DNA of 64,000 nucleotides from Sycon ciliatum (lineage: Eukaryota > Porifera > Calcarea > Leucosolenida > Sycettidae): positions 81,454,699 through 81,518,698 of the forward strand of contig NC_088643.1 in the NCBI RefSeq assembly GCF_964019385.1, in the 5' to 3' direction. A program made the translations under genes and the position numbers. The notes under the pieces were generated by a model. It did not search any database and was not told the origin of the DNA. It saw nothing but the letters and a program-made list of their open reading frames with translations. Positions 33,164 to 53,854 of the stretch are shown piece after piece. Within the stretch, counting starts at the first letter, position 1. Each line of letters starts with the position of its first letter.

Positions 33164-36100
33164 TACTTATTATTATTATTATTATTAGACACAATCTCAT
33201 AGCATGTGACAAGCATAGCTAATGCAGGGACAGAATCCCCTGAGACAAGGGCGTTGAGCCAGCCACGGCAATAGTAAGCTAGGAAAACAAAGCAAATATG
33301 AGTTAGAGCAGAAAATGAATGGAAAATTACAAAGAAAAACGATTAACGGAAGTGAGCACTATCAAAATTCGTGCATCACCCAGGTATTCGAGAATGTTCT
33401 TCGATGATAATTATTGCGTCTAGTTCAGTTGTGATAGTAGATCTTTAAACTGACCAATAGAAGAACAAGTTTTCAGACCGTATGGTAATGATAACCAATG
33501 AGAGTAGCCGGAAAACAAAGGGGACTTTAGATACTGGGCTGACTTAACAAGAGGCAGGATGAGCGCGTTACGGGTTGAGCTTGTCGTTATTGTACTTCAT
33601 CATGTGTGAAGGGGTTTTATGAAGAAATATTTTATGAACCAGTGTACAGAGATGGTGCTTATGACGAACGGAGAGAGGAGAAGTGTGTGCAAGTCGATAA
33701 AGGGCATCCGAAGGAAAACATCGATCCTTGTTGTAAAGAATTTTAAGTATAAATCTATGGTGGACTTCTAATTGGTTCAGAGTTGTGTCAGAAAGGCCAC
33801 ACCAAGCGGTATCGCAATAGTCGAATATAGGGAGAATATAGCACTGATAAAATAATAGTTTACACTGGATGGGCAAATGAGTGCAATGTGGTTGTAGTAC
33901 CCCTAATGCTGAACTGGTTCGCTTGCATACACAGTTGACATGTGCAGCCCAAGAGAGTTTGCGGTCAAACATCACACCTAGATGTTTGTGCTGAGTAACA
34001 ACACGGATAGGCATAGTCGAGTCAGGGAAGTATAATGGTTGATCAGGAGGGGATGAAGAAATATACATGGCTTCTGTCTTGTCTAAATTGGGCTGGAGTT
34101 TCCACGTTTGCATCCACATGACAGTGCTGTTGATGCGATGCTGCATGGTAAGGAGTAATTGTGCAGGGGAGGAATCAGAACAGATCAGGCCAGTGTCATC
34201 CGCATACAAACTAACATCGGGGACAACTGAAGGTAGGTCATTAACGTAAAGCAAGAATAACAAAGGACCCAGAATGGAACCTTGGGGCACTCCAGACGTT
34301 ACAGGGAGGGGATCAGACAAGAAATAAGACAAGCGAACAGCCTGAGAACGAGCAGACAGATACGAGGATATCCAACGCAAGGCAGCATCCTCCACCCGGA
34401 AGGTGACCTCCAACTTGGCAAGTAAGCCACGATGCCAAACGGTGTCGAATGCCTTAGCCAAGTCGAAAAACACCATTCCCACATGCTCCCCACAGTTCCT
34501 CTTTGTCGCTATGTCTTGGACAAGTCGAGTCACCTGGTATTGAGTTGAGTCACCACGGCAGAATCCCGACTGAGCTGGTGAGAGAGCCGGAGCGATGTGC
34601 AGGTAGAGGGAATCGAATACAATACGCTCACAAAGTTTGGAAACTGTGCGCAGCAGAGAGATGGGGCGGTAGTTTGCCGGGCAAGCACGGGAGCCTTTAT
34701 TCTTGTAAAGCGGTGTCACGATGGCGGATTTCCAATCCTGTGGGAATGTACCAGTTCGAAATGACATATTAAAAATAATGGCGAGAGGATAGGCTATTGA
34801 TGGTGCAAGAGACTGCAGCACTTCATTCGGGATCCCATCTGAGCCGGGAGACTTTCCACATTTCAGGCGCTTCAGATATTTCCGAACTTGAAACGTAGTG
34901 ACAGTGATTGTACGGAACGGAACAGATATGAAAGGCGACTGGGACAAAGGGGGAATGCGCCACAAAGGATCATCAGGTAGCCCAAATGAGGTGAACTGAG
35001 TGTTCAGAACATCAGCTATGCTCTTGGGGGACGTGGCGACCGTACCGTCGGATGCTATCATCGTTTGGGGCATGACACGGCCGGAAGTGTGCCGCTGTGC
35101 TCGCACAAACTGAAAGAGTGTAGGTCGATTCGGTGACGTTAGTGATGCTTGGATGGAGCGTATATATTGACGATGTGCTTGCCGAGACAGGTGCTTTACA
35201 GCATTCCTTTGTCGGTTATATTAAGCTGCATGATTTACTGCTGTCGGATATTTTTTGTACACACTGTATAGATCACGCTTGCGTTTTACAGCAGACCTGA
35301 GCTCAGCAGTAACCCATGGTGGAGATTGCATGCGGGGTCGTGGAGATGTCACAGTGTGGGTGGCTCCGAATGAGGTGAGGTGACGACGGAAGGCGGACTG
35401 GAGCTCACAATCAAAGTGATGAAGTGCGTCATTAACATCAGTGTACGAGTTCAGAGAGGACCAGTTGTAGCCAGCTAAATCAGCGTTGATTAATTGCCAA
35501 AGGTGCGAAGGTACTTGTTTGAAGCGATACAGTGAAGAGGGAGGACCAGTGGAAGAGTTGGGGAAGTAGTTCGAAATAGGGGCGTAACATAAAGTGCAAA
35601 CAATCTGTATATGGTCAGACATACCCAAGGGAGGTGCTTGATCAATTGAGCGCACGAGGCGTGGTCGGTTGGTGATCACCAAGTCCAGACACGAAACAGA
35701 GCCATTAGGCGAGGAATGAGTGGGGAAGTCAACCATCTGGTGGAGCCCAAGAGCAGAAAATACTGTGCTAAGGAGATCACCAGCCTTCGAGGTAGAATCG
35801 GTGGGACACCAGCTTGAGTTGTGGGCGTTGAAATCGCCAGTCACTAACAGATCATAAGAATCTAAACAGACTGACTGTAATGCCTCAACAAACATGTCAC
35901 AAAAGTACGACAATTGCATTGTGCTCTGTGAGGGTGGTCGATACATGCAGCATAGTAAGATGGGATTCTGAGATTGAGTAGAGGGGGAGCCAAGTTCAAG
36001 CCACACAGACTCGCAGCCAGGGCGTTGAAGGTCGGCACGAGGGGAGACGTACGGAAAGGAGTCCGAACGGACAAGTACGGCAACACCCCCATACCCACGG

Positions 36101-36188
36101 CTACAATGCGCTGACCGATTGTCTTCCGGAGGTCGATCTCTATACAGATACACAAATGGAGTTACAGCTTCGACCCTGCAGTAGACAT
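33164..36188 (-). mobile_element. CR1/Jockey-like LINE, nearly complete copy B2
   Basis: Reading from 36188 down, one minus frame covers an APE-type endonuclease (VTGDFNAHNSSWCP, GMSDHIQIVC) and continues into a reverse transcriptase (GKSPGSDGIPNEVL, FFDLAKAFDTVWHRG, SGVPQGSILGPLLFLLYVND, SLYADDTGL) to the stop at 33568. A single in-frame TAA at 35223-35221 separates the parts, with no frameshift between them. The 3' untranslated part ends in an (AAT)n tail at 33187-33164. The 5' end is cut inside the endonuclease at the junction with the 36189-36537 element. It is the best preserved LINE here. Confidence 0.9.
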
Positions 36189-36537
36189 AGCCCGATTTTG
36201 CTAGCAATTCTGCTGGCAAAATATCGAAGAATTTTGACGAGAGAATTTGCTGGCAAAACGGAGCAAAATATCGGTATGTTCGCTGGAAGTTGGGAGATTT
36301 TACACATACGGTGCATGTGACTCATTTTCGTACATTTTTGCGAACACGTGACTCATTTTTTTCTCATTTTGCCAACACGTGACCCACTTTCGGTCAGTTT
36401 TCCTACACGTGACCCAAGTTTGGCCTTGTCTTGGAGCAAAATATCGAGTGACCTGGCAAAATGAAAGCAAAATATCGACGATGAGCAAGCAAAATTTTGC
36501 GGCAAAATATCGACATTACCCCGGCAAAATCGGGCTT
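36189..36537. mobile_element. MITE-like element with AGCCCGATTTTGC ends
   Basis: The 13-bp ends AGCCCGATTTTGC and GCAAAATCGGGCT enclose 349 bp filled with GCAAAATATCGA motifs in both orientations. A middle array of four units contains CACGTGAC followed by CATTTT/CCACTTT. No target duplication could be read. It sits exactly at the 5' edge of LINE B2. A related ATTCGATATTTTGC sequence occurs at 11945-12010. Confidence 0.6.
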
Positions 36538-45547: not shown

Positions 45548-48500
45548 TTTATTTTATTTACCATCGGATGCCTCAACAGTGATACACACAACTCTTAAGA
45601 GGGCCGATAACGGGATAAGTGGAAAGGAAAGGAAAAGAAAAGAAAAAATAGGAAAAAATTGGAATTCAGACATCAAGCAGTACAGTAATCAAACACCAAA
45701 TATATTGAGCAGCACATGTACTCTCCTGATGTGACATCACTGTCGTTCTCCAAAAACGGCCAAAATTCAATCCTGATGGGGACAAAATTCCAAAAAAATT
45801 CAAAGTGCGAAAATCCAACCAAAATTCAAAAATAATTGAAAACATTTTATGGACAAGCCTACAGTCCATTCAGAAAAAAATGAACTTCTAGCTTTTGGCC
45901 ATAAATGGGTCAAACGTTGAGTTTTTTTAGAATTTTTTTCTGCAATCCCATATGGAATCCTCTTCCAATTATGTTTCTGAAGTTTTTTTGTCCAAAAAGC
46001 AAGCCATAGCAAGAATAGGATTTCGGCCAGGTTTTGCCCCAAAAGCACTGAATTGGGAAAAACCATCAAAATCCAGGCCGTTTGACCCCGCCTGCAACAG
46101 TGCATTCTGCGGTTCGAACCCCAGTTCAGGCACCCTTTTTGGACCCTTTTTCAAATTTCAAAGTTCGCAGCACTGCACTGTGTACGATGAAATCACGAAA
46201 AATCGCCAAATACGGGAGCTCGCCAGAGCCAGGACCCATCTTTTTATAAATGGACTGTAAGTGGGTGTCGTAAATGGGAATGACTGTACATGTAGCAGTT
46301 ACTGTTTACACGTGTACATGACATGTACTCACCTGTAATACTGTGCATGTGTGTTATGTCCCCTTGCGGACTAACATTCCATTACACTCATGCATTCTCA
46401 CTGACACACACAAACAGTTACACTAGCTTTTGGAAGACATTCCTCTTGGTCAAGTAAAATAACAACAACAACCATATGCGAGCATGCGCAGTCAGTAGCA
46501 AACGGTGTAGTAGATATATAATGACTAACTTGCATACACAACAACTGCCCCCTTTCAAGAATGTTCCAGGGAATATTCTACCACAATTAAATACCTCAAA
46601 AATCGTTGAAGAAACACATAAAATAAGTTCATCAATCCACCGTACGTGAATTCTTAAACTTTGACACAGCACTACAATAACATAATCTGACGCAGGAATC
46701 CGTCAGTCAATATTAGCAATACCAAGGATCTTGCACACTATTGTACATGGTAATAATTACTAGTTCGCTAAACAGTCCAGCAATGACATCAGGGAACGGC
46801 TCAAAGCTGTTCAATCAGTCTATCCGGACGAACACTACGCCGAGACGAACGTCTAACAGTGGTTTCACAGGGAGTATTCTCGACCTGTGGTAAACCAACT
46901 TCAGGAGCAGACTGCTCACAAGGAGGATCCGCCTCAACTTGTACAGTAGCAGACTGTGGCGAGACGCTAGCCGGAAAATCACTGGACAGTGACGACTCTC
47001 CTACGTCTGACAGCACTGGTGACGGTGACGTCTGATCGATTGTATCCAACAGTGGTTCTGGCAGCGATGCACTCAAGCTTGCCGGAACTGACCGTAGACG
47101 CAACTGATCTCGGTGACGCTTCCACAACACATCACCCACTTGTACTTCATAGTTGTAGTCACTGAGGACACGCACAATTCGTCCCGGGACCCAACGATTA
47201 CCTTTGCCGAAATTCAGCGCAAACACAGAGTCACTCTCTGTGAACGCTGGCTTGACGCGATTGCCGTCCTCATAAGCCTTTGCTTGTTGACGTACCTGCG
47301 AGGGACGCAGAGCACTGAGCCGCGTGCGTGGCTGGCGTCCAAACATCATCTCCGCAGGTGTTCTGCCGGCATGGTTGGGTGTCGTGCGGTACGTTAGCAG
47401 AAACCTGTCGAGCCGAGCTTGCAGTGGTTCGCTCGTTGCACCCATTTCCTTCAACTTCTGCTTAAACACACCCACATAGCGCTCAGCAAGTCCATTCGTA
47501 GCCGGATGGCCTGGAGCCGTCAGGGTGTGCACAATGTCGTTGGCACGGAGGAAAGCCTTGAATTCCTCGCTCGTGAATTGGGTTCCATTATCTGAAACAA
47601 GATGCTCCGGCAGACCAAACACAGAGAACACGTGCCGCAGAGCCGCAATAGTGGTTGCAGATGTGGCATTAGACATTGCAATTACATCCAGATACTTTGT
47701 GTATGCATCCACCACAACCAGGAACATCTTGCCCATGAATGGTCCTGCAAAGTCGATATGCACCCGTTTCCAAGGACCGTTTGGCCATGACCAGGTTCCC
47801 GACTTGGCAGGTGGACATTTCGCACTTTCTTGGCATTGAGCACATGCCTTGATTAACATTTCAATCTCTTGATCCACGTTTGGCCACCATAAGTACCGTC
47901 GTGCCATTTGCTTGGTTTTGACCATGCCAAAGTGCTCCGTGTGCAAATCACGTAGCAATACCATTCTTAGTGATTTGGGTATGACAACTCGTTGTCCCCA
48001 CAATAGGATACCATCTTCCGCAGACAGCTCATCCCTCTTATTGTGGTAAGACCGAAACGATTGGGGTACTGAGCTAGGCCAACCATTCACCACATAGTAG
48101 AGCACCTTAGATAGCTCAGGGTCACGAGCTGTTTCCGATTTCACTACGTCTGCTTTGATTATCGTATCTTCCTCCACTAGCAAGACACGAACCGTAACCA
48201 TTTCCTCTGCAGACGGACTGATATTCTCACATGGTTGCCTAGACAGGAAATCCGCGTAGACATTTTCCTTGCCTGGCAAATACTTGATCTCATAATCATA
48301 GCCAGCTAGCATTAGTGCCCATTTCTTGATGCGAGCTGATGCAATTGTAGGAACTGGTTCGTTGTTTCCCAGTAACTTCAATAGTGGTTGATGGTCGGTT
48401 TGAAGCGTGAAGTGGCGCCCTAGCAAGTATTTCTGGAACTTCGTAACACCGAAAACCACAGCTACGGCTTCCCGTTCGATTTGTGCATAACGCGATTCAG

Positions 48501-51500
48501 CCGGTGTCAATTTCCTTGACACGTAAGCAACCGGCAAAACATCACCATTCGTTTGCCTTTGCAATAGTACGGCACCTAGACCCATTGGAGAAGCGTCCAC
48601 CTGGAGTGTGACTGGCTTCTTGACATCGTAGTGTGCTAATAGCGTATGCTCACACATTGCATCTTTCAAGGCCTGGAATGCATCTTCCTCTGCCTTGCTC
48701 CATTGCCATTTCATTTCTTTCCTGAGCAGGTTGTACAGTGGTGCAGCAATCTCTGCGAACCGAGGTACAAATTTCCGTTGAAAATTGGCCGCACCCAGAA
48801 AAGAGTACAATTCATTCACGTTGTTAGGCGGCTTTGCGACTTTCAAGGCGTTCACTCGATCAGGCGAGGGTGCGATTCCCTGCGCGGTTACCTGATGACC
48901 GAGGTACGTTAGCTTATCCGCCATGTAGCTGAACTTCTTAGGATTGAGCTTGAATCCTTTCTCATTTAGGCAAGATAGCACTTGATCCACATTTTTCTCA
49001 TGGATCTCCTCATCACGACCAGTACACAACACATCGTCGATGTAGCCCCCGCATCCTGGCAAATCGCTAAGGGTTTCTTCCATTACCCGTTGGAAAATAG
49101 ATACGGCGCTGTGAAAACCAAAAGGGAGTCGTTTGTACTGATACAACCCCTGCATGGTATTGATCGTGGTGTACTTCCGACATTCAGGTGCTATCTCTAG
49201 CTGGTGGTAGGCTTGCGACAAATCCAGCTTCGTGAATTTAGACCCCGGGCCCAATTTGTGCAATAGCTCCTCAAGAGTGGTAGCTCTCCCGAATTGACAG
49301 TGGTACCGGCCTGGCCTTTCGGTAAACAGGGCTCTCATCAGACACATGCAATTTCACCTGCACGCCTTTCACCTTTCCCACTTCTGAGGTGTCGAACAAC
49401 CCTGGGTATTTCTCAATGAATTTAGCGCCAGACTTTTCGACCTGGTGCACTTCGAAAATTGATTTCCAGGGGAGTTTGAACAAAGCCATTGCATCTCTGC
49501 CCAGAATAGATGGACGGTTTCCATTTGTAACCCTCACCAATAGTGTGTGCAATTGTGTGCCCATTCGGAACTCCATTTCCGCTTCCCCGAGACAATTAAT
49601 CACATCTCCAGAGTAGGACACAAGGTTGATACTGGATTCCATCAGGTTACTCAGCACACCATTGCATTGCAAGAAATCTGCGCTGCTGAGAATCGTGACA
49701 GCACTTCCTGTATCAATCTCCATTTGGATAGTGGTACCCATTACATCTAATGATACAGTGTACGGTAGTCGCCCCATTGCATTTACACTATACATGGTGA
49801 CATCGGGTTTACTAGCACATGGAACGAACTCACCAATTTCTTCCGCGATGTGATGGACGGTTTGTCCAGACTTCTTCTTGCGGCAAGCTCTCTCGATGTG
49901 ACCCACCGTACCACACGCGTGACACTTCACACTCTTGAAGCGGCACTCTTCCGGTTTGTGACCAGCCTTGTCACACCGAAAACATTTCTTGTCGTGCGAC
50001 TTGAAAGTTGGAGTTGGCTTGCTCGTCGACTGGCGCGAACGAACGGCGTGGACGGACTGCGCCGTCAATTGTTCCGACTCTCTCGATGCAGTTTCATAGG
50101 CTGATGCCATCGTCACAATGTCCGCCAAACTTGAGGTCTCCTTTGCTTTCGACAATATCTCCTTCGTAACACTGATCGACTTCAACCCACTGACAAACTG
50201 GTCTCGGAGTGCCCTGTCCAAATACGCCTGAAACTTACAGTCCATGGCTGCTTGCTTTAGTCTAGCTGCATACTGTGTTGCTGACTCTCCATCCTTTTGA
50301 CAAATCCTCTGGAATCTATGAGTCGCCGCCAACACACTGACATTAGGCTTGAAGTGCTCTGAAAGCAATTCTCCGAGTTCCTCAAACGTTTTCTGCGCTG
50401 GTTTGTCCGGCAGGCAAAGACTCTTCAGAATCGAGTAGTTCTCAGCAGAGAGTTGACTGATCAGGACAGCTGCCTTTTGCGTGTCTGCCGCTCTCTCCTG
50501 GTCCGCGGTTGCCCCAGCTGCGACTTGTCCAATACTGTTGGCGATAAAATAAAACGTGAGTCTCTCTACATACTCACGAAAATCACCTTTTTCAAATATT
50601 TCAAGCTTCGATCGCGACATCTTCGTCTTTTATCTTCGTCGCCAAATTGTTATGTCCCCTTGCGGACTAACATTCCATTACACTCATGCATTCTCACTGA
50701 CACACACAAACAGTTACACTAGCTTTTGGAAGACATTCCTCTTGGTCAAGTAAAATAACAACAACAACCATATGCGAGCATGCGCAGTCAGTAGCAAACG
50801 GTGTAGTAGATATATAATGACTAACTTGCATACACAACAATGTGCTATTACTATTATTATTATTATTATTATTATTATTTTAAAACGAAGGTAAGTTATG
50901 GGTCGCAAATATCCACGCAAACACACATCCAGTCATAATAAGGCACTTGTCATAAGTATCCGAACGTTTTCGGTCCCTTCTCATCAAGGATTATACAGGG
51001 AATGGCTCAAGCTGGAAAGACTAAAACTTGCCGTTAAGTTGTGTTCCGCTTGATGCGCGCGATTGTCGTCCTCGCCGTGGTCGTCCTCCGAAATGTGCTG
51101 TCCAGTCCATCGGTGGATCTTCCTCTTCCCGTGAAGATGTGACTGCATGCCCGTCCTCCTCTGCGTGTGTAGGACACGGGCCAGCTGAGAACAGCATAAA
51201 AGATGGTGAAAGACCCACACGTAAACCACCGAAACTGACAAAGGATCTGTCGGCATCGGAAAGGGTGACGAGAAGCCAAGTGAAAATACGGACTGATGAG
51301 GACGAACATACAACGACAACGGAAGTGACAACAACAGTCAATATTCGAAAACGTGGTAGACCGCGAAAACTAACCTCAATATCGGACACCGGACAAGTTG
51401 GAGTAAGAAGCTCAATAGAAATCCGCAATGGAGGAGACGTAACGGAAAGGACACCGGGTATCGCGCACCCAACGGTTAGTGTCAAGAAACGCGGAAGGCC

Positions 51501-53854
51501 GCGGAAACGCGAAGAGACAGATAGTGGTGATGCCACGAAGAGGCAAGATGACGGGACATTGGAGGAGACAACACCCAATGGAGCTAGGAATCGCACTTCG
51601 TCAATCAAGCAACATCTGTCAGCCCGTACCAATTATCGTGAGTTGTACAGTGATAATGTTTTCTCAATATTGTCACGTGGTAGATGTGCGTTACATTTGG
51701 CTGTGTTAGAAGCTTTGTATATCCGTAAGTTAGATCCTGAACTTTGCGTACAGAAAGAAAATGTGTTGTCGCTACAATTGTTTGGTGTTACTCCTCGTCG
51801 AGGTGGTAACAATGTAACTTAATTTGCTCACTATGTTGTTGTCACTATTATTATTATTTTCCTTCGAGTTTTGTGTCGTGCTAAACTTGATAATTTTCCA
51901 CGTTGTCACGAGTGTTGTTATCTAATTATCTTTACGCTATATAAGTTTTAGTCTTTCCAGCTTGAGCCATTCCCTGTATAATCCTTGATGAGAAGGGACC
52001 GAAAACGTTCGGATACTTATGACAAGTGCCTTATTATGACTGGATGTGTGTTTGCGTGGATATTTGCGACCCATAACTTACCTTCGTTTTAAAGTATTAT
52101 CCGCCTCCGACCTCTTTTAAAAAATTATTATTATTATTATTATTATTATGTACAGGTGTTGTGGCGAGCTCAAAGCCGATCAGTTAAATACTGCACTCAT
52201 GTGGAAATTCCAAATTTTAAAAAGTGTTCTTAAATCTGATAATTCTAGCCTGGACTGTTCTTAAATTTTGCCGGTTTTCCAGCCTGGGTGTTCTTCGGCG
52301 CCCGATCTTACTGTAGGGGTACCACTGGGGTCAGGACTGACTGAGCTCAGGGCCGATTGAGCAGTACAAGGACTATGATATGGGTCATAATACAGCGACT
52401 ACTGCCGTGTTTTCCTGCCTTGCATATGATCGATCATTATTATTATTATTCCCGTAGCTATGCAGAAGACGTTACTTCAGTAACGTCTGGCGCCAGCCAG
52501 GGTCCACACAGCTTTAATTTGGTGTTTGTTTGTTTGTTTGTTTGTTTGTTTGTTTGTTTGTTTGTTTGTTTGTTTGTGTCACGGCTGGAGCTATCCCGTA
52601 TCTGTCCCGTATCTGTCCCGTATCTGTGACTACAAAGGCTCTACAGGATTGTATATAACAGCTGTCCACAATCTTTGCGGGCCCCTGTATCTGTCCCGTA
52701 CAGTTACAATATTCGTCGTATTATGTATACGACTCCCTGATGTAGAGGGAAATTTGGAAAGAAAAAGGGAGACGAGGAGGAAATTAAATTAGAATACACG
52801 CCGAATAGGTGATAGGATGCGTCAGCATAAACATGCTTTGGAAGAGAGATCCCGTCGTCTCCAAAATAAGCGTGAACGAGCGATTCAGCGCCGGTCACAG
52901 GAAACGTCGGAAGAGAGATCCCGTCGACTCCAGAACGCCCGTGATCGGCAGAGTCCGCCGGTTCCAGGCAACGTCAGGACAGACATCCCGTTGAGTCCAG
53001 AACGCCCGTGATCGGCAGAGTCTAAGCCGGTCCCAGGAAACGTCAGGACAGACATCCCGTCGAGTCCAGAACGCCCGTGATCGGCAGAGTCTAAGCCGGC
53101 CCCAGTAAACGTCAGGACAGACATCCCGTCGACACGCAGAAAAACTAAATCTGCAGACTCTTTTGCCGTCTGACAGGATACGTATTTTAGGAGACTGCTA
53201 ATTTATGTAATGTGCTCCACAGGCAACCATGCATTAGGTAGGCGTCGTCATTGGCTCAACAGGTCAATGTACTTGTATTCCTACAAAAAGGCCAGAAAAT
53301 CCGATTACTGTATTAAAATCAACTAATTTTCGCTGGCGATTTAATTTCGCTGATTTCGCCGCTTGGTAATAACCGGCCAAAGTAAATCGCGGGCCAAAGT
53401 TTGTCATAGGCAAATGATGCATGATTGAGCAATGGATGCATGTGAGAGCAAAAATACCGATCGATTTCAAACTTGACGTGAAATTGCGCGTCACGTCGGA
53501 AATAACGTGCATCTTAACCTCTTTAATAGAGAGGTTTCTATTTCTCATCGGCCAAAATTTGCTGATTTACAGTATAAGGAGATAAAAAGAAAAGAAGAAG
53601 CAAATCAAAAGTAGATGATTATTAGAGAAATAACAATCCGCAATAAATTCTGCAAATACTTTTGCCTCAGTTCTTATAACATGTACGATGAGCTAGGCAA
53701 AAAAGCATAAAAGCATAGCGTAGGGCCCTGAGCTTCCAAGCTCTCTCGTCTGTACTCCTGCATAGCGGATTTGCTCTCGGCTGAGCTCAGTACCATGGTG
53801 CTTATCCCCTGCCTCTGACTTGTGTATATGCATGTGTGTGTGTGTATGTATGTG

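Follow-up and report, generated by a model that had tools for sequence, protein, structure and literature searches.

The 64,000-nucleotide stretch of the Sycon ciliatum genome analysed here (contig NC_088643.1, positions 81,454,699 to 81,518,698; hereafter the window) contains, at positions 50879-52093, a compact unit with perfect inverted arms, which very probably arose when a Penelope-like element (PLE) with an endonuclease inserted once into an ATT microsatellite through priming from both target strands. The unit consists of two copies of one element end placed head-to-head, a left copy of 151 bp and a right copy of about 1.09 kb, which meet with 1 nt of microhomology; the inverted arms are the overlap of these two copies. 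Under the proposed mechanism, the endonuclease would cut both strands inside the (ATT)n tract, and each free 3' end would prime reverse transcription of the PLE RNA inside its pseudo-long terminal repeat (pLTR), one at a tail site (E3890) and the other at a no-tail site (E3865; element coordinates E1-E3893 are those of one observed copy, L013, with E1 at the start of that copy). Where the primer reads AAT, the no-tail priming would shift to a nearby ATT-like site. The two growing cDNAs would stop at arbitrary points and then be joined end to end, so that the length of the inverted arms would be that of the shorter copy.

Direct pairing of the arms (50879-51029 and 51943-52093) found 151 of 151 positions complementary, and alignment prolongs both arms by 6 bases into the flanking repeat, at 99% identity. 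An initial sequence-only reading had reported these arms, the (ATT)n outside both of them, and an interior with three AT-hooks and a Penelope-type endonuclease tail but no reverse transcriptase (RT), and all of these observations were borne out. On the left side the repeat occupies 50852-50878; on the right side it covers 52124-52147, after 25 nt and an A-run. The frame at 51025-51822 is open over 265 codons, carries three AT-hook cores and not a single methionine codon, and ends in EALYIRKLDPEL...NVLSLQLF, the C-terminal part of a GIY-YIG endonuclease of Penelope type, as both alignment and a profile match indicate. The Pfam AT_hook model scored 13.2 bits on this frame, under its cut-off of 17.4, and the frame matched none of the solved structures searched. 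No RT was found within 50879-52093, and the parent element and its protein, used as queries against the whole window, returned no further part of the element. The window copy lacks an ATG in its frame and cannot move by itself.

The parent element was recovered by searching the assembly (538 Mb) with the unit as query, which gave at least 41 matches, the window included, with the interior and right arm complete or nearly so and mostly at 98-99% identity. Other copies extend as much as 2.8 kb upstream of the point that corresponds to 51029, and the longest one observed (L013) measures about 3.9 kb. A single frame of 1025 residues, comprising RT plus GIY-YIG, is present in the longest copies L013 and L010; it is uninterrupted in 6 copies, one further copy has 1040 codons, and in alignment the window frame matches the L013 protein at residues 761-1025. 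The motifs YGLPKIHK and FVDD are presumably PLE-like. L013 begins with an inverted segment (E3344-3836), followed by a direct pLTR (E1-156 matches E3734-3889) and the remaining copy. As judged from sequence, the parent is an endonuclease-bearing (EN+) PLE, closest to those of Penelope/Poseidon type: it combines directly oriented pLTRs and an inverted partial copy (L013), one open reading frame (ORF) with RT and C-terminal GIY-YIG endonuclease (sub-threshold profile scores), an optional tail at one inverted end, as defined in the available part of PMC3846280, and an AT-rich, ATT-type target. The sequence-only reading had offered a PLE with inverted terminal repeats that had lost its polymerase; the PLE origin and the absence of RT in this copy hold, but the arms are not terminal inverted repeats. 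It had also allowed that all copies might sit in longer standard Penelope elements, which is true of the longest, such as L013, but the inverted arms are real and common.

The 30-mer spanning the window junction occurs at one place in the whole assembly with up to 2 mismatches allowed, whereas the uninterrupted element across the same point occurs at 197 places (95 forward and 102 reverse); the compact unit is thus one event and not a family. Head-to-head copies were present in 20 of 20 mapped regions, each copy with its own 5' truncation point, although these regions (L019 and L023 being complex) were hand-chosen from the unit search, many for a close second match, so that the share of paired insertions cannot be inferred from them. 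No two of the 19 arm overlaps compared are equal in length. Among the 19 junctions read, 10 show an overlap of 1-3 nt, 3 show none and 6 contain 1-35 extra nt; the breakpoints lie far apart in the window (E3715 vs E2804) and are nearly mirrored in the first pair of L022 (E2697 and E2693). Arms of the same locus differ at 59 of 12757 positions. In 15 of 19 cases they resemble each other more than arms of different loci do, in 3 the likeness is the same and in 1 it is smaller (Wilcoxon P = 0.001; 20 pairs were given and L014 was left out for its short overlap). The window arm is uninformative in this test because its stretch is identical in 22 of the 35 other arms that cover it, and for the same reason neither a recent origin nor recent gene conversion, both once suggested for its perfect arms, is needed.

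Outer ends and the orientation of the (ATT)n target

The outer ends fall into two main classes, located either right after CTTCGTTTTAAA (E3865), without a tail, or 25 nt further on (E3890), with the tail and then an A-run. Exactly one tail per pair was found in 27 of 29 pairs. At 51 of 58 ends, four ATT-type units lie within 45 nt of the outer end, compared with 0.4% of the 45-mers of the window.

The position of the no-tail end follows the orientation of the repeat. Among the 27 one-tail pairs, in which end classes were read by hand, every tail flanked by ATT has its partner end at TTTTAAA (17/17), and every tail flanked by AAT has it elsewhere (10/10); L027a is classed as 'elsewhere' though its end lies only two bases before E3865 and its subfamily has an altered sequence at that site. 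The 20 pairs from which the rule was formed gave 14/0 vs 0/6 (P = 2.6e-5), and the seven later test pairs, for two of which the end positions, not the flanks, were already known from earlier mapping, gave 3/0 vs 0/4 (P = 0.029). For the test pairs C14:24.08 and C9:1.10 no partner end was found, and L083-L086 were taken as single ends. Outside the table stand C2:46.3, with two tails, and L023, with no tail, where one end has an ATT flank directly after the AAA of the E3865 site. A second pair at L019, at TTTTAAA with an ATT flank, runs contrary to the rule but is ambiguous by one base; entered as contrary, it changes the table to 17/0 and 1/10 (P = 8e-7).

The ten 'elsewhere' ends have on average 5.4 nt in common with the ATT repeat, compared with 1.3 nt for random joins at the best phase, and over the seven distinct 'elsewhere' sites the mean is 4.9 nt (P = 3e-5). 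Exact patterns counted across the assembly, on the forward strand only (reverse matches being counted repeatedly per site) and with duplicated regions included, gave 40 cases of tail followed by ATT, 36 of tail followed by AAT, 39 of TTTTAAA followed by AAT, and 15 of TTTTAAA with ATT within 5 bases. These 15 comprise 1 direct join, 12 with two bases between and 2 with five; two intervening bases GT correspond to a site at E3872, and TT to the E3865 site. For the 12 two-base cases the letters are known for L019 only (TT, contrary to the rule), while two reverse-strand cases with known letters, L014 and L079, read GT. Fisher's test gives P = 8e-9 if only the direct join is taken as E3865 and P = 0.007 if all 15 are. 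A no-tail start that follows the orientation of the ATT repeat fits two-sided target priming, and the rule is apparently new, having not been met in the available parts of PMC11167929 or PMC3846280.

Alternative origins of the inverted arms

Several points weigh against a PLE insertion primed from both strands. The tail count omits L016, a large palindrome, and L019, a complex locus, and its 29 pairs include two exceptions, L023 with a tail on neither arm and C2:46.3 Mb with a tail on both. The Pfam scores of the intact proteins are under the curated cut-offs, both for RT (RVT_1: L013, E = 7.6e-4, 19.7 bits; L059, E = 1.2e-5, 25.6 bits; cut-off 29.6) and for GIY-YIG, which matches at profile positions 3-31 or 3-30 only, with 13.2-14.8 bits (cut-off 22.6); with these matches sub-threshold, the assignment to the PLE family is based on the anatomy as a whole. 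Gene conversion could also yield the likeness of arms within a locus. Two-sided priming itself is deduced from the structure of the ends, and self-priming on an antisense template has been proposed for head-to-head PLE arms (PMC3846280, in the part available).

That last route, by which the inverted arm of the same element would arise through self-priming or template switching of one cDNA instead of priming on two strands, is unlikely here. Palindromic junctions are described in the same source, and the high within-locus likeness of the arms fits a single template; however, both arms run out into the target microsatellite, each from an RNA start site of its own, usually one with and one without a tail, the two copies mostly break off at distant element positions, and 13 of the 19 junctions have 0-3 nt of overlap and no foldback loops, the nearly mirrored pair of L022 being an exception.

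A hammerhead-ribozyme retrozyme, or a satellite derived from the pLTR, is very improbable. The TGATGAG...CCGAAAA motif noticed in the arms does exist and was seen again in the other copies compared: the hammerhead-like TGATGAGAAGGGACCGAAAACGTTCGG block is conserved in the pLTRs of the family copies compared and in tandem pLTR arrays, with few changes in L036, and the conserved TGATGAG...CCGAAAACGTTCGG block, together with tandem arrays of ~302-bp pLTR units at C8:16838237-16842901, would suit a retrozyme. The hammerhead suggested on the strength of this motif did not find a counterpart in the Rfam covariance models, which gave no match at E<=10 in 50850-52150 and none at E<=1 in six related loci. 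The core of the block reads UUGAUGA, where the hammerhead consensus is CUGAUGA, stem II is nearly absent, and the arms fold no better than shuffles (z = 1.18).

Less probable still is an assembly-made palindrome or a chimeric read join. Perfect inverted arms are a known signature of such artefacts, and L016, another locus of this assembly, is part of a multi-kb palindrome; the window arms, however, end at different element positions (tail vs no tail), which makes an assembly origin unlikely, both flanks carry (ATT)n on the same strand, and 26 other pairs likewise have a single tail, their breakpoints, where read, being different. The weakest explanation, which can hardly be entertained, is the other proposal of the sequence-only reading, a separate non-autonomous retroelement, compact and bounded by 151-bp terminal inverted repeats, that would be mobile as a whole and have retained a DNA-binding protein: it would account for perfect arms around an open frame of 265 codons with three AT-hooks, but several copies with the same termini and internal junctions were not found, the junction being single-copy and the arm overlaps of different length in 19 of 19 comparisons, and the frame lacks an ATG and is the 3' part of a larger RT-endonuclease frame into which the other copies continue.

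Features of the window and related loci

Table 1. Features of the PLE insertion, in positions of the 64-kb window; E coordinates are those of the reference copy.
Feature	Positions	Strand	Basis
(ATT)n microsatellite, left flank (target)	50852..50878	+	repeat read outside left arm
Left arm: inverted second copy of element 3' end, no tail (E3715-E3865)	50879..51029	-	mapping on reference copy
Head-to-head junction, microhomology 1 nt, unique in assembly	51029..51030		junction reading and assembly search
Right copy: 5'-truncated Penelope-like element (E2804-E3890), ~1.09 kb including 25-nt tail	51030..52118	+	mapping on reference copy
Open frame without methionine, remnant of RT-endonuclease frame	51025..51822	+	alignment to L013 residues 761-1025 of 1025
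AT-hook 1 (PRRGRPPKC)	51070..51096	+	core motif in frame
AT-hook 2 (RKRGRPRKL)	51346..51372	+	core motif in frame
AT-hook 3 (KKRGRPRKR), absent from two other aligned subfamilies	51484..51510	+	motif and alignment
GIY-YIG endonuclease, C-terminal half	51595..51819	+	profile match and alignment
Right arm: element 3' end (part of pLTR), up to E3865	51943..52093	+	mapping on reference copy
Tail extension (E3866-E3890), right copy only, 25 nt	52094..52118	+	mapping on reference copy
A-run, then (ATT)n microsatellite at 52124-52147, right flank	52119..52147	+	repeat read

Directly to the left of the PLE insertion lie frames resembling a Ty3/Gypsy retrotransposon (46801-50629, minus strand), with a gag-like frame (49271-50629) containing a zinc knuckle and a protease-like part, whose Pfam matches are under the cut-off, and a pol-like frame (46801-49353) in which RT- and integrase-like parts were recognised by motif reading. 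Frames of a non-LTR retrotransposon occupy 33568-36321 (minus strand) and, again by motif reading, comprise an endonuclease-like (35221-36321) and an RT-like part (33568-35220).

Elsewhere in the assembly, the array on C8 (L039-L050) is both tandem and inverted, its units corresponding to the PLE pLTR (E1-288), and a similar array with 280-bp units is found at C132:11496-12203. At L016 (C1:1887000-1896000), a multi-kb near-perfect palindrome includes both PLE arms and their flanks, and may be a real duplication or an assembly fold.

The split endonuclease and its relation to known Penelope-like elements

The window unit is an ordinary truncated Penelope insertion; what makes the family a variant is its split endonuclease. 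In three subfamilies, 148-187 residues carrying AT-hooks interrupt the GIY-YIG domain directly after RQHVP; with this insert left out, the Pfam match extends over profile positions 3-72 to 3-74 with 21.7-24.9 bits, two of three being over the 22.6 cut-off. Two AT-hooks are kept in all seven aligned endonucleases from the three subfamilies, with variable linkers and a third hook that the subfamilies do not share; L063 (stop codon) and L065 (truncated end) were left out of this alignment. Silent divergence (dS) is 0.8-1.4 over the linkers and 0.3-0.4 over the short N-terminal half, and the ratio of nonsynonymous to silent divergence (dN/dS), in rough values near saturation, is 0.36-0.45 for the insert, 0.05-0.21 for the N-terminal half and 0.04-0.09 for the C-terminal half. 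The high silent divergence and the dN/dS values together argue that the insert is not recent and is under some constraint.

No insert-free relatives were found among the best 150 of 9567 candidates; L089-L091, considered as such, were rejected as truncated copies without the N-terminal half of GIY-YIG in front. In the same genome, an 807-codon frame (L088, C1:2909220-2909900) contains a PLE-type GIY-YIG that lacks the AT-hook insert, and L087 gives a full-length GIY-YIG match. An AT-hook insert inside a GIY-YIG domain is apparently new: among the matches listed in a literature search of open-licence PMC articles, there was no description of AT-hooks in Penelope elements, one article naming each of the two a single time.

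The AT-hooks probably help the endonuclease hold AT-rich target DNA, and the insert may serve (ATT)n targeting, although the hooks are probably not the sole source of the ATT preference because PAc of Anolis carolinensis prefers ATT without AT-hooks being described for it in the available part of PMC11167929. A more specific scheme can be put forward tentatively, as somewhat less than an even prospect: the AT-hook module built into GIY-YIG would let the enzyme clamp (ATT)n and cut both strands, and the two arms would differ in how they start: the tail arm from one fixed RNA site irrespective of the primer, and the no-tail arm where the RNA matches the 3' end of the cut repeat.

In PAc, the enzyme cuts both strands of the target, preferring 5'-ATT-3', and both are then extended; reverse transcription begins at internal positions of the RNA, and the tail is the stretch between two start sites (PMC11167929, this and the following from the part available). 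The Sycon family is like PAc in having one frame with RT and C-terminal GIY-YIG, pLTRs, a tail that is the interval between two RT start sites, an ATT preference and, as its ends suggest, cutting and extension of both strands. It differs in its GIY-YIG split by the AT-hook insert, in its (ATT)n tract as target and in a no-tail start that depends on repeat orientation, whereas the PAc start site is reported to be non-homologous to the cut DNA and alike for the two strands. The priming and joining steps of PLE cDNA are described there as still awaiting experimental validation. In Adineta vaga, Pen1-Pen6 have inverted pLTRs, an optional 31-bp tail and head-to-head arms (PMC3846280, likewise in part), and they have in common with the Sycon family an inverted pLTR beside a direct one, head-to-head arms, an optional tail, simple AT-rich targets and in-frame ORF inserts. 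Their inserts, however, are asparagine-rich and located between RT and endonuclease (EN) or between core RT and thumb, whereas that of the Sycon family has AT-hooks and interrupts the EN domain itself.

What sets this family apart is less the window copy, itself ordinary, than the presence of AT-hooks inside the nuclease domain of a retroelement. Its abundant, closely similar copies in one simple repeat, with 130 exact forward-strand insertion ends, form a record of how PLE cDNA is primed and joined, and make the family's ends a test bed for PLE priming. If the scheme of two starting rules is true, the asymmetry of tail and no-tail ends in Penelope elements would record which target strand primed which arm.

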